Position numbers and translations under genes: made by a program
Shown: positions 2,812 through 14,317 of the stretch, one piece after another
Layout: each line of letters opens with the position of its first letter
How positions within the stretch are numbered: position 1 is the first letter of the stretch
Assembly (NCBI GenBank): GCA_027051265.1
Contig: JALTZH010000128.1
Coordinates: forward strand, 1-14,317
DNA: 14,317 bases
Origin: an archaeon
GTDB lineage: Archaea > Hydrothermarchaeota > Hydrothermarchaeia > JALTZZ01 > JALUTC01
Direction of reading: 5' to 3'
The notes under the pieces: generated by a model
What the model was told of the DNA's origin: nothing
The model's input: the letters and a program-made list of their open reading frames with translations, nothing else
Databases searched by the model: none

Positions 2812-2859
2812 CTTAAGGTTTAAATTAATAATTCGCACTTTTTAACATTCTTTTCTTTT

Positions 2860-2924
2860 GGGTTGGGAATGATACAATTCCCAGAGTTTAATCCATATTT
2901 ATAGTATTGAAAGGGTATTGAAAG
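2860..2924 (+). repeat. Solitary degenerate CRISPR leader-end plus repeat, upstream of hdrA
   Basis: GGGTTGGGAATGATA at 2860-2874 matches 14 of 15 bases of the CRISPR leader end at 12398-12412. CCCAGAG-type sequence follows, and then a 28-nt repeat-like block at 2886-2913 that matches the array repeat at 23 of 28 positions. Its last 12 bases, TAGTATTGAAAG, are exact. The distance from GGAATG to the repeat is 20 nt here and 22 nt in the real leader. The last ten bases, GTATTGAAAG, are duplicated one base downstream (2915-2924). There is one repeat, no spacer and no second full repeat. It lies on the hdrA strand 37 nt before its start, directly upstream of the likely TATA box. It could be a decayed array, an ectopic leader copy or a recruited regulatory element. 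Confidence 0.8.
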
Positions 2925-2961: not shown

Positions 2962-4956
2962 ATGAGTAAAGAAATTAGACTAGGCGTTTATGTTTGTCAT
3001 TGTGGAGTTAACATCGCAGGAGTCGTTGATGTAAAAAAGGTTGCAGAATATGCTTCAAAACTAAAAAACGTTGTAATTTCTCGTGATTATAAATACATGT
3101 GTTCTGCACCTGGTCAAGAACTAATAAAAAAAGATATAAAAGAACATAAACTAAATAGAATTGTTGTTGCAGCATGTTCTCCTAGGTTACATGAACAAAC
3201 GTTTAGAAAAGCTCTTCAAGAAGCCGGTTTGAATCCATTTTTGCTTGAAATGGCTAACATAAGAGAGCATTGCTCTTGGGTTCATATGAATGATAAAGAA
3301 ATCGCAACCGAAAAGGCAAAGGATTTATTAAGAATGGCTGTTGCAAAGGCTAGATTATTAAAGCCTCTAAATCCTATAAAAGTACCTGTAAAAAATAAAG
3401 CCTTAGTAATTGGTGGAGGAGTTGCTGGAATCGAAGCCGCATTAGATCTTGCTGATATGGGATACGAGGTATATCTGGTTGAAAAATCTCCAAGTATAGG
3501 AGGACATATGGCAATGCTTGATAAAACATTTCCAACAATGGATTGTTCGGCATGTATTCTCACACCAAAGATGGTAGATGCTGCAAGACATCCAAATATA
3601 AAATTAATAACTTATGCTGAAGTTAAAGAGATTAAAGGTTATGTTGGAAATTTTAAAGTTAAAATATTAAAGAAACCTAGATATGTTTTGGAAGATAAAT
3701 GTACTGGATGTGGTTTATGTAGTGAAGTATGTCCAATAGAAGTTCCTAATGAATTTGATCAAGGTCTTGGAGTTAGAAAAGCTATATATGTACCATTCCC
3801 CCAAGCCGTTCCTCTAGTGTATACGATTGATAAGGATTATTGTATTGGATGCGGTAACTGTAAAGCTGTATGTGGTGCCAAAGCAATAGATTTTGAACAA
3901 AAACCTGAAGAAATAGAATTAGAGGTTGGAACAATAATTGTTGCAACTGGTTATAAAACGTTTGATGCTAGAAAAATAGAAGAATATGGTTATGGTAGAT
4001 ATCAAAATGTAATCACAGCATTAGAATTTGAACGACTGATAAACGCTTCAGGACCAACAGCTGGAAAACTTATAAGACCAAGTGATGGTAAAGAGCCTAA
4101 GAGATTAGCTTTTATACTATGTGTTGGTTCAAGAGATGAAAGGTTTAATAAGTATTGTTCAAGAGTTTGCTGTATGTATTCGATTAAGAATGCAAGATTA
4201 TACAAGGAAAAGCATCCGGATGCGGATGTCTACATCTTTTACATGGATATAAGAGCAAGTGGAAAAGGATATGAAGAATTTTATAAAAAATCTCAGGAAG
4301 AGTATGGAATAAAATTTGTGAGAGGAAAACCTTCTGAAATCAAAGAAGATAGTAAGACAAAAAACTTAATAGTAGTTGTTGAGGATACTTTATTAGGTAA
4401 GAAACTTGAGTTTGAATTTGATCTTGTAGTTCTAGCAGTAGGTTTAGAACCAAGAGAAGATTCAAAAGAACTCGCCAGAATGTTAAGAATATCTGTAGGA
4501 GAAGATGGTTTCTTTTTAGAATCTCATCCTAAATTAAAACCTGTAGAATCTGTAACTGATGGAATATTTCTAGCCGGATGTTGTCTTGGACCAAAAGATA
4601 TTCCGGAATCGGTTGCACAAGCATCAGCTGCAGCTGCAAAAGCAGCGGCGTTAATGAGTAGAAAGGAGATAGAAGTTGAACCAATAATTGCTAAGGTAAA
4701 TAAAGAAAAATGTATTGGCTGTAGATTATGTATGCAAGTATGTGATTTTAAAGCAATAAATATTGTTAATCGAAAAGCTGAAGTAAATCCAGCATTATGT
4801 AAAGGTTGTGGAGCATGTAGCGGAGCATGTCCAACCGGTGCAATACAAGTAAATAACTTTATGGACGATCAAATCTTTGCAATGCTCGATGCATTATTCG
4901 ATGAGGAAAAAGAGTTTAAAGGTGTAGAAGTTGAAAAAAAAGTTTTAAAACACTGA
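2962..4956 (+). CDS. hdrA: HdrA-type heterodisulfide reductase subunit A (FAD, multiple Fe-S clusters)
   Basis: HdrA is the flavin subunit of soluble heterodisulfide reductase-type complexes, where FAD can bifurcate electrons between ferredoxin and a disulfide-reducing HdrBC module. The 664 residues are a normal full length. The N-terminal HdrA domain contains C12, C14, C47, C72 and C104. GGGVAG at 151-156 is the FAD Rossmann loop, and [21 protein letters not shown] (178-198) is an HdrA hallmark. Ferredoxin-type motifs lie at C247/250/253/257, C294/297/300/304, C584/587/590/594 and C613/616/619/623. C387, C399, C403 and C404 form a further conserved group. No HdrB, HdrC, MvhD or FdhB gene is in the window, so its electron partners are unknown. 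Non-methanogenic archaea also have HdrA, so it does not imply methanogenesis. The start has no Shine-Dalgarno sequence. Confidence 0.95.
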
Positions 4957-4980: not shown

Positions 4981-5064
4981 TATATATACTTTTTGTGAAT
5001 TTCAGATTTTTTAAATTTGGAATGATATAGGTTCTAAAGGTTTAAGCTATTGTTGTATTGAATG
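4971..5064 (+). repeat. Solitary degenerate CRISPR leader plus repeat, upstream of the THUMP-SPOUT gene
   Basis: About 95 nt align with the CRISPR leader and first repeat (12358-12453). Shared elements in the same order are the T7-A-T-rich tract with TATATA, GTGA (4995), GGAATGATATAGGT (5019-5032, 14 of 14 identical) and a repeat-like block starting GTTTAAGCTAT (5040-5050, exact). After a 3-nt deletion the block ends TGTTGTATTGAATG. GTGA-to-GGAATG spacing is exactly 24 nt in both. GGAATG-to-repeat spacing is 21 nt here and 22 nt in the array. Many differences in the GTGA-GGAATG interval are G/C to A/T changes. There is one repeat and no spacer. The element lies on the coding strand and ends 22 nt before the downstream start, so it must form its promoter region, 5' UTR or both. 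Confidence 0.85.
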
Positions 5065-5068
5065 GTTA

Positions 5069-5086: not shown

Positions 5087-6109
5087 ATGATATTGATTAA
5101 AACTAGAAAGGGAAACGAATTTATAGTAAAAACATTTTTAGATGAAAAAAATATCAAATCAGAAGCTAGACCTCATGGCTATCTTGGATTAGTGGTTGCG
5201 TATACCGATGATTTAGACGAAGTCTTAAAAATACCAGAGGTTGAACATGCTTATAAAGTCGAAAAGGTTGTTCGTGCAAATCTAGATGAAATTGTTAAAA
5301 CATGTAAAGAATTTGCTGATAGAATTAAAACTTGTAACAGTTTTGCAGTTGAAACAGTAAGACGGGGGACGCATGATTTCACATCCGTTGATGTTAATAT
5401 CCGTTGTGTTAAAGCTTTGAAAGAATTAACCGGTTGTGATGTTAATTATAAATTTCCGGAGAAACTTATAAGAGTTGAAATCATAAATGAGAATGCTTTT
5501 ATATGTTTGGTTGATGGAAAAGAGATCAAAAGAAAATATACTCCCGAAAAAAAAAGTTGTCTAGAACTATTTAATAAAATAATTTTTGTACAAATGCCTT
5601 ACTGGGGATCTCTTGATGGATGTTATGAAATGGGTAAAAGAATAGGAAGGGCTGCACAATCTTTTGAAATTTTAAAATTAGTTATAGCAAATCATGATGA
5701 AATAAATGCAGTTGAATTTTATAATTTTTTAAAAGGTGTTCTAGATGGAATTAAAGCTAGAATTTATATACAACGAAAAGCATATCCTAGAGAAATTAGA
5801 CAAGTTGAAGTAACTGTTGATAATCTATTCCAAATCATAAGAAAGCTTAATCCTAAAAAACATCTTATAATAATTACCGATCCACTAGGTGAACAAGTAA
5901 CGAAGGTTAAACATCAATTGAAAAAAGATTTAAAAAACTATGATAAAATTTATATATTTGCAGGATCAAGAGAAGGCATACCAAAAGGTTTATTTAGATT
6001 TGCTCATTATGTATTAGATTTAGCTCCGGGAATTACTTTCGCTACAGAACATACTATACCTTCAAGCTTAATCTCATTGTATACTATTTTTTCTGAGGAA
6101 CATGAATAG
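5087..6109 (+). CDS. THUMP-domain SPOUT-type predicted RNA methyltransferase (COG1818-like)
   Basis: The 340-residue protein joins an N-terminal RNA-binding part to a C-terminal SPOUT (knotted, SAM-binding) fold. Residues about 65-145 look like a THUMP domain, with the core FAVETVRRGTHDFTS at 86-100. Residues about 160-335 form the SPOUT part. FAGSREGIPKGL (291-302) and DLAPGITFATEHTIPSSL (311-328) are the glycine-rich stretches expected to build the SAM-binding knot. This architecture is that of the archaeal COG1818 group, predicted to methylate tRNA or rRNA. I do not know its modified nucleotide, so no symbol is given. The start lies 22 nt after a solitary CRISPR leader-repeat element and 3 nt after a tiny upstream ORF. 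It has no Shine-Dalgarno sequence. It is the last plus-strand gene before a convergent pair. Confidence 0.82.
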   Translation: MILIKTRKGNEFIVKTFLDEKNIKSEARPHGYLGLVVAYTDDLDEVLKIPEVEHAYKVEKVVRANLDEIVKTCKEFADRIKTCNSFAVETVRRGTHDFTSVDVNIRCVKALKELTGCDVNYKFPEKLIRVEIINENAFICLVDGKEIKRKYTPEKKSCLELFNKIIFVQMPYWGSLDGCYEMGKRIGRAAQSFEILKLVIANHDEINAVEFYNFLKGVLDGIKARIYIQRKAYPREIRQVEVTVDNLFQIIRKLNPKKHLIIITDPLGEQVTKVKHQLKKDLKNYDKIYIFAGSREGIPKGLFRFAHYVLDLAPGITFATEHTIPSSLISLYTIFSEEHE

Positions 6110-12143: not shown

Positions 12144-12220
12144 GCATTTCTTGCTCTGAAGAGGTTAAGGGTAATGATTATAAATTTAATATTTTGTTGG
12201 TTTGTGGAAATTTAAGGTAG
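12140..12220 (+). CDS. Possible 26-residue small protein overlapping the preceding ORF
   Basis: The ATG at 12140 overlaps the stop of the 34-codon frame as ATGA. This is the same coupling arrangement as the GltS1/GltS2 and DUF460/aIF6 pairs. The peptide begins MSISCSEEVKGNDYKFN and has two Cys (positions 5 and 22). No family is recognised. The frame may be fortuitous and is listed because of the overlap only. Confidence 0.18.
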   Translation: MSISCSEEVKGNDYKFNILLVCGNLR

Positions 12221-12339
12221 AAATTTTTTGATATTGGCATGGAACATTTTAGGCATGGAGATCCGTTCTTGCTCTGAAAAGCTTCACGACTTTTTTGTAT
12301 AACCATCTTTTCAGAATTCTTAACTTTTAATATTTAATT

Positions 12340-12425
12340 GTTTGCATTTTTTCTCATTTTTTTTATCTATATACATCTCGTGAGTTCCCGATCCTCAGGG
12401 TCGGGAATGATATAGGTCCCAGAGA
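12340..12425 (+). promoter_or_regulatory. CRISPR leader (repeat-proximal part)
   Basis: This AT-rich, T-tract-containing segment immediately precedes the first intact repeat, while the degenerate repeat is at the far end, so the array reads rightwards. A T8 tract and TATCTATATA (12365-12374) may form the promoter. GTGA (12380) and GGAATGATATAGGT (12404-12417) recur in the two solitary copies at about 2860 and 4971. TTCCCGA (12385-12391) and TCGGGAA (12401-12407) can pair as a 7-bp stem with a 9-nt loop. A competing GGGA/TCCC pairing is possible with 12417-12420. Conserved leader-end motifs are known to direct new spacer insertion next to repeat 1, and GGAATGATATAGG is the best candidate here. 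Confidence 0.75.
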
Positions 12426-13404
12426 GTTTAAGCTATACTAGTAGTATTGAAAGAGATTTGGTAGAGATACAATGCAGAATGTAATCTTTCTATGTTTAAG
12501 CTATACTAGTAGTATTGAAAGCTTAAAGATTTTAAAATGCGTACTGATGATGTTGCAATAAGTTTAAGCTATACTAGTAGTATTGAAAGTTACTTAAATC
12601 TTGGAAAGGTGGCAAGCTATGGAAGAACGTTTAAGCTATACTAGTAGTATTGAAAGATATAATTGTATGTCTATATGGTCTAAGACTCCTTTATCCGTTT
12701 AAGCTATACTAGTAGTATTGAAAGTCTTTGAGTTCTTTTACCGAAATATATATAACAAATCCTAGTTTAAGCTATACTAGTAGTATTGAAAGAACATTGC
12801 CACTCGTATCATATCTTTATTTCAAAATTTTCGTTTAAGCTATACTAGTAGTATTGAAAGGGGTAAATGATTTTGAATTGAGGTGATGAAAAGCACCGGA
12901 GTTTAAGCTATACTAGTAGTATTGAAAGCATCTGGAAGAGAAACTTCCTCTGAGTTTTTTCCACTCCGGTTTAAGCTATACTAGTAGTATTGAAAGTATC
13001 GCTTGCAAGGTGGTTCGTATGGGTATTGCTAAGACTAGTTTAAGCTATACTAGTAGTATTGAAAGACATCTTTAAAACTACAACTGAAAACTTGTCTTAT
13101 AGTATGTTTAAGCTATACTAGTAGTATTGAAAGCTGGTAGGGTAATCGTGGTACTCTTCACAGCTATGACAGTGTTTAAGCTATACTAGTAGTATTGAAA
13201 GTTTCTTGAAATACTTTTTTCCTAGTACTTCGAATGTATATTGTTTAAGCTATACTAGTAGTATTGAAAGAAATGGTTACTACTTGGTGCTGGTGCTATA
13301 TTGTTAATGTTTAAGCTATACTAGTAGTATTGAAAGAAAATTTGATTATAAGGATTTTCATCTTCCTTTGAGACTCGTTTAAGCTATACTAGTAGTATTG
13401 AAAG

Positions 13405-13443
13405 ACCATACACTCACCTCCAATACTACAAGTATAGTTTAAA
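13405..13443 (-). other. Spacer 15: contains an inverted, degenerate copy of the CRISPR repeat
   Basis: On the minus strand this spacer holds CTATACTTGTAGTATTG, against CTATACTAGTAGTATTG in the repeat. Over 27 positions (13443 down to 13417) 23 match. The remaining 12 bases, overlapping the end of the repeat-like block, read GGAGGTGAGTGTATGGT: a full archaeal Shine-Dalgarno sequence and an ATG. The protospacer was therefore a solitary repeat-like unit directly upstream of a gene. In the precursor RNA the spacer can pair with the flanking repeats. The first 12 nt of the guide, including the type I seed, lie outside the repeat-like part, which would spare the host's own repeats. Confidence 0.85.
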
Positions 13444-14258
13444 GTTTAAGCTATACTAGTAGTATTGAAAGATTTTTGTCACATGCATTTGCATTAATAC
13501 AGAAATCACACGTTTAAGCTATACTAGTAGTATTGAAAGATTTGTGCAGAGCTATTATCGAATCAAAAATTTAGAAACAGTTTAAGCTATACTAGTAGTA
13601 TTGAAAGTTTAATCTTCGATACTTCATAGTTCGTCAAAACAGCCGTGTTTAAGCTATACTAGTAGTATTGAAAGCTTCTACTATATACCTATCTTTATTC
13701 CTTCCTATTATATCGTTTAAGCTATACTAGTAGTATTGAAAGTAGCTTAGTATCTCCACGTTAAACAAGTCTGCGATTTCTTGTTTAAGCTATACTAGTA
13801 GTATTGAAAGTTTCAATCTTAACTTGGGTATATTCAACATGACTGATATCGTTTAAGCTATACTAGTAGTATTGAAAGTTTATATATAAAAGGGTCTGGG
13901 ACGGGAGGTGTTTTTATGTTTAAGCTATACTAGTAGTATTGAAAGATAATTTCATGGTCGTCCGAGTTCCGAAGTTCCGCGTAAGTTTAAGCTATACTAG
14001 TAGTATTGAAAGCCTTCTTAAACAATTTTGTCCCTTCCAAATCAGCATCCAGTTTAAGCTATACTAGTAGTATTGAAAGAACAATTAGCAAGGTCTTAGA
14101 CAAAAAAATATAGGAAGCTAACGTTTAAGCTATACTAGTAGTATTGAAAGTTGCTTTCTCAATTGTTCAAGCTCTTGCTCACTTATTTCCGTTTAAGCTA
14201 TACTAGTAGTATTGAAAGATAAATTCTGATATTTTGTATATTGTTACATAGGGATTTT

Positions 14259-14286
14259 GTTTAGGTTATACTAGTGGTATTGAAAG
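14259..14286 (+). repeat. Degenerate terminal CRISPR repeat (repeat 28)
   Basis: It differs from the other repeats at three positions (6 A to G, 8 C to T and 18 A to G), all transitions, and keeps the ATTGAAAG end. A degenerate last repeat marks the leader-distal end, agreeing with the leader at the left. The 31 nt that remain in the window are shorter than a spacer, so a further repeat just past the edge cannot be excluded. Confidence 0.85.
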
Positions 14287-14317
14287 ATTGTTGGTGAGCG
14301 ATTTATAATTGTAGGAT

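Follow-up and report, generated by a model that had tools for sequence, protein, structure and literature searches.

CRISPR repeats that stand alone, outside an array, have so far been known mainly from viruses, as anti-CRISPR RNAs, from CreA guides, and from the repeat-like motifs of transposons. Solitary repeat units encoded by viruses can act as RNA anti-CRISPRs (Racr; PMC10651486). Viruses and plasmids of the Sulfolobales carry leader-bearing mini-CRISPR arrays, along with stand-alone repeats without recognisable leaders (PMC6858448). In Saccharolobus, non-canonical Cbp1 sites occur in ISC1229 transposons (PMC10883916). Here we describe an archaeal CRISPR array in which one spacer resembles the repeat itself, and a family of solitary leader-repeat units dispersed over the chromosome of the same host. 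The window, by which we mean the whole stretch of 14,317 nucleotides that was analysed, is contig C128 of an assembly of 1.46 Mb.

The array of the window (Table 1) holds spacers 38-43 nt long and runs on into contig C27, as window positions 14191-14317 are identical over 127 nt to C27 1-127 (L037). On C27, the final repeat is found at position 137 and is followed by a TruA-like gene. Most relevant to this study, the minus strand of spacer 15, TTTAAACTATACTTGTAGTATTGGAGGTGAGTGTATGGT, shares 23 of 27 bases with positions 2-28 of the array repeat. After the repeat block it continues as GGAGGTGAGTGTATGGT, which corresponds to a ribosome-binding site and a start codon. The boundary of the spacer falls within the repeat block, leaving the leader side of the source outside the spacer. 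Its length and phase are normal for the array, and the repeats that flank it are identical.

Table 1 Features of the window discussed in the text (positions in nucleotides)
Feature	Position	Strand	Details
Solitary unit upstream of hdrA (2962-4956)	2836-2913	+	R1 53.2 bits, E 3.5e-14
Solitary unit between hdrA and THUMP-SPOUT gene (5087-6109)	about 4984-5067	+	R1 52.1 bits, E 7.3e-14
Reference copy of the unit (CRISPR leader and first array repeat)	12322-12453	+	Homology to 14 solitary units
CRISPR array	12426-14286	+	28 repeats in the window, consensus GTTTAAGCTATACTAGTAGTATTGAAAG, last repeat degenerate
Spacer 6	12793-12832	+	Protospacer 40/40 on G001:C25, 5' flank CCT
Spacer 15	13405-13443	-	39 nt; repeat-like block 13417-13443, then SD GGAGGTGA and ATG (minus strand)
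Spacer 24	14013-14051	+	Protospacer 38/39 on G001:C25 (ParA-like gene), 5' flank TCG

A chance origin of this repeat match is negligible. A binomial estimate that allows for any of 37 spacers, both strands and all offsets gives a probability of about 2e-6, and spacer 15 scored 17 against the repeat, while the best among 20,000 shuffled spacers scored 10.5. Among the 37 spacers of the array that were compared, none but spacer 15 resembled the repeat. Meanwhile, an SD match of at least 7 nt, properly spaced ahead of a start codon, occurs in only 0.27% of host 40-mers, suggesting that the tail is most likely a genuine gene start. These results confirm the preliminary description of spacer 15 as an anti-repeat with a ribosome-binding site and start codon, and the layout of the spacer supports its proposal that the source DNA bore a solitary repeat directly before a gene. 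SD strength was also considered as a marker of mobile origin and gave no discrimination (at least 6 nt in 1 of 37 spacers versus 1.3% of host 40-mers). A possible second gene start was observed in spacer 22 (window 13879-13917), which displays a TATA-like stretch and GGGAGGTG, with an ATG arising where the spacer meets the next repeat.

A pattern search of the host genome yielded 66 repeat-like places, against zero for the reversed control. About 25 of these were solitary, that is, outside the arrays (window/C27, C84 and C121). R1, a model of 85 positions used to search genomes for such units, produced 18 host matches with E below 1e-13, of which 17 are solitary units and one is the leader of the array itself; decayed copies followed at weaker scores. 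Altogether, about 30 solitary copies of the array leader with its first repeat are present in the host. Across 14 strong copies, homology sets in at about position 12322 of the window and stops exactly at 12453, the end of the repeat, with control level beyond either side. The unit is a 132-bp segment with sharp ends that are common to its copies. Its elements typically follow the order TTTGCATTTTTT, TATA box, inverted repeat TTCCCGATCC-nnAG-GGTCGGGAA, ATGATATAGG and repeat, and most units have one repeat without a spacer-like insert. Covariation in the leader hairpin was weak, with 85% of cells paired and changes on both sides in 4 pairs, against 3.5 in shuffles. Two of the units lie in the window, and the repeat-then-gene layout previously noted upstream of hdrA and of the THUMP-SPOUT gene was verified.

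Some copies depart from this layout. At C208:8777-8863 (L053 2978-3064), a second degenerate repeat lies 31 nt beyond the unit, directly before the ATG of a TtuA-like gene, so that the 5'-UTR amounts to a degenerate mini-array. Several units (L056 3009-3070, L045 near 1000-1074, L052 3039, L050 189, L040 3020 and window 2886-2924) are directly followed by additional copies, in tandem, of the repeat's 3' half (GTAGTATTGAAAG). A tandem pair of units is present at C50:13787-13916 (L057 2890-3017); the second of them is devoid of the TATA part, and its upstream homology to the array leader reaches window position 12161. At L071 and L086, a second type of 5' extension (caagaggctcccgcaccttagcac...gaagttaaggcttataagaatgaaa), unrelated to the array-leader extension, is found some 150 nt upstream of units.

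In 22 of 32 units, a same-strand gene lies at the repeat end or shortly after it (within 166 nt); the other 10 have none there (two-sided binomial test, about 0.05). According to our readings of the proteins, the genes preceded by units encode UbiX, an SdhA/FrdA-type flavoprotein, ribosomal protein L18e, aTrm56, a TtuA-like protein, RibC, HisB, a UDP-sugar dehydrogenase and HdrA. About eight units have the start codon no more than 12 nt from the repeat end, which places the GAAAG of the repeat at the position of a ribosome-binding site. The repeat end in the source of spacer 15 reads GGAGG instead of the GAAAG of the units.

Comparison with G001, a sister genome of the same genus, indicates that the units look like insertions. 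The hdrA/THUMP-SPOUT junction measures 20 nt in G001 and 130 nt, with the unit, in the window, and the G001 orthologues of L18e and DUF373 have no unit before them. R1 detected one unit in G001 besides the array, and gave no convincing match in the other class-mates. Some of the genes preceded by units have other neighbours in G001, and the absence of units there could be partly due to loss. The unit at C252:3757 is situated between copies of GAATARTTCAAAGAGCAAAT, a 20-bp duplication (19 of 20 identical) that abuts both ends of the element and overlaps the stop codon of the neighbouring gene. This was the one clear case among 27 units tested, and target duplications at the remaining units were not convincing. 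As for terminal inverted repeats, inspection by eye revealed only a short imperfect match, CTTTTAATATT versus CTTTCAATACT (9 of 11), located 5 nt off the end. The sole unit found in G001 (C139, L202 1219-1309) precedes RHH antitoxin-like and MazF/PemK-like genes (1339-1859), and this contig also bears a second RHH/PIN-like pair.

The repeat part of spacer 15 can be placed within this family. It is identical at 23 of 23 positions to the solitary unit before ubiX (C48:19204-19227). The block carries A7 and T15, as do several solitary units, while the array repeat has G7 and A15; the repeat part of the spacer thus stems from the unit family and not from the array. The tail GGAGGTGAGTGTATGGT was not found beside the units of the host's own genome. 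We infer the source of spacer 15, since the full 39-nt protospacer was found neither in the own genome nor in 22 class-mates, viral contigs, phages or plasmids. The spacer most likely represents a unit-gene junction from DNA that is absent from the assembly, belonging either to a mobile element or to the chromosome of a sister strain.

We therefore regard it as probable that spacer 15 covers the point where a solitary leader-repeat unit meets the gene that it drives, which is the overall best explanation of the observations. According to this explanation, the units would be mobile or formerly mobile cassettes that supply a promoter, a hairpin in the 5'-UTR and the purine-rich GAAAG end of the repeat, which can serve as ribosome-binding site. 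This end would have turned into a perfect site (GGAGG) in the DNA from which spacer 15 came. Cas1-Cas2 would then have captured a fragment from a mobile element bearing the unit or from a sister-strain chromosome, and an anti-CRISPR role of the source would be unnecessary. The adaptation genes cas1 and cas2 are both present in the host, on contig C117. There (L205, 7-2588) they stand alone on opposite strands beside a serine recombinase (IS607-like), and the contig displays no interference genes. Two Pfam models, one of which had poor reach in control genomes, detected no Cas6 in the host.

One of the two branches of this explanation is accidental self-acquisition, in which the fragment came from a chromosome of the host population (the missing 5% of the assembly or a sister strain) and was tolerated because the resident copy differs at the seed end or has since been lost. 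We consider this branch quite possible. The units found adjoin ordinary chromosomal genes, and the assembly, 95% complete, is split into 257 contigs. The preliminary description proposed that a chromosomal solitary copy as best protospacer would indicate such an event; the best partial match, the unit before ubiX, is indeed chromosomal, which comes close to that outcome over the repeat part of the spacer. However, no other spacer of the array near-perfectly matches the own genome outside the arrays, suggesting that self-derived spacers are rare here, and a perfect chromosomal target would be autoimmune.

An alternative that we deem unlikely is the one favoured by the preliminary description, namely that the source was a viral or plasmid-borne solitary repeat acting, by mimicry of the host repeat, as an RNA anti-CRISPR, and that the spacer reflects immunisation of the host against this element. 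Viral genomes frequently contain solitary repeat units, in many cases a short way behind a promoter, and inhibition of type I-F was shown for one of them (PMC10651486). Furthermore, two spacers of the same array, 6 and 24, match a contig of the sister genome, G001:C25 (L200, 1-6494; 6.5 kb), indicating that the array is at least partly aimed at mobile DNA. This contig appears plasmid- or virus-like from its gene content: a HerA-like ATPase, a ParA-like ATPase, TadC-like, prepilin-peptidase-like and AbrB-like proteins, and pilus-type membrane proteins. Yet the targeted contig carries no unit. The source repeat is followed directly by a ribosome-binding site and start codon, which is the arrangement of a gene 5'-UTR. 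Such units form a chromosomal family in the host, and as about 30 leader-plus-repeat pieces precede ordinary genes in its chromosome, a mimic virus is neither needed nor supported.

A search for the protospacer in viral, phage and plasmid sequence, akin to the check suggested earlier, did not recover the full 39-nt source, nor anything credible. Eight pattern or protein scans were run against 2.9 million viral contigs; seven of them revealed no unit, and the eighth used a tail-only pattern. Four patterns directed at the repeat core, namely the core with two SD variants, the spacer core, the sister repeat and the relaxed unit repeat, matched no viral contig. The leader core gave five matches, which covered a short part of the unit only and reached at most 14.2 bits. 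Two proteins of G001:C25 had no relatives among the viral contigs. Phage records yielded no match, and a repeat scan of named genomes returned nothing. Two sets of candidate matches were rejected. The five viral matches to a tail-only pattern are starts of one type of phage protein (MV.SLEEVKLYLRVDG, with a head-tail-connector-like reading); they are unrelated and have no repeat ahead. A 22-nt AT-rich match in Borreliella, among plasmid records, was taken as chance.

It is very improbable that spacer 15 is a functional antisense element, regulating crRNA processing or unit-driven genes through base pairing of its RNA with the adjacent repeat or with 5'-UTRs that contain a repeat. The pre-crRNA fold does place spacer 15 on the downstream repeat (-27.3 kcal/mol, z -5.1), and because of this pairing the processing of crRNA 15 may be impaired. 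Nevertheless, any anti-repeat pairs automatically, the 5'-terminal 12 nt of the spacer do not come from the repeat and resemble the start of a gene, and there was no sign of selection for pairing. An array repeat that was inverted or mis-integrated within the array is scarcely credible, for although the block lies inside the array in opposite orientation, A7 and T15 are seen in solitary units but are absent from every repeat of this array, the tail GGAGGTGAGTGTATGGT does not recur in the array, and spacer length (39) and phase are normal.

The seed end of spacer 15, ACCATACACTCA, is most likely gene-derived, so the units found in the host genome are not expected to be targets of crRNA 15. The earlier expectation that a non-matching seed would limit self-targeting holds in this respect, as the seed end ACCATACA... 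has no match beside any of these units. A repeat-like spacer alone does not indicate an anti-CRISPR virus, and the unit family is more interesting than spacer 15 itself. We tentatively postulate, as a possibility still open to considerable doubt, that the leader and first repeat became a mobile 132-bp expression cassette which, possibly through Cas1-Cas2, spread over the chromosome of one archaeal species and at about 30 sites now provides housekeeping genes with a promoter, a 5'-UTR hairpin and a ribosome-binding site, and that spacer 15 records one such cassette. If true, an immune array would have a control region that is itself able to spread and rewire gene expression. The mRNAs of cassette genes would then carry a repeat open to crRNA-processing enzymes or repeat-binding proteins, tying these genes to CRISPR activity, and Cas proteins that bind or cleave repeats could control ordinary mRNAs. 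Cleavage of unit-bearing mRNAs by Cas proteins is speculation; Cas6-like cleavage, if any, would fall 8 nt before the repeat end and leave 5'-AUUGAAAG.

A limited search of open-access text found no description of a leader-plus-repeat module dispersed in a chromosome before genes, and several known systems come close to the units. As in Racr, one CRISPR repeat lies behind a promoter and outside arrays; here, however, about 30 copies reside in a cellular chromosome, with the whole leader and mostly before housekeeping genes, and none was seen in viruses (PMC10651486). The Sulfolobales mini-arrays likewise place a leader and repeat outside the main arrays, and the stand-alone repeats resemble those of the host, but they are carried by viruses and plasmids, whereas our units consist of a leader and one repeat without a spacer and are chromosomally dispersed (PMC6858448). 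Cbp1 sites are also repeat-like motifs scattered over an archaeal chromosome, many of them on mobile DNA; they are 21-bp motifs often associated with an IS110-family element, in contrast to 132 bp of leader and repeat with no transposase seen (PMC10883916). Finally, the ectopic repeats of CreTA lie outside arrays and use CRISPR parts for gene control (PMC9458426). CreA represses a toxin and contains a spacer-like guide along with, as a rule, two degenerate repeats, while the units described here have one well-kept repeat and no guide. The single G001 unit does precede an RHH antitoxin-like and a toxin-like gene.
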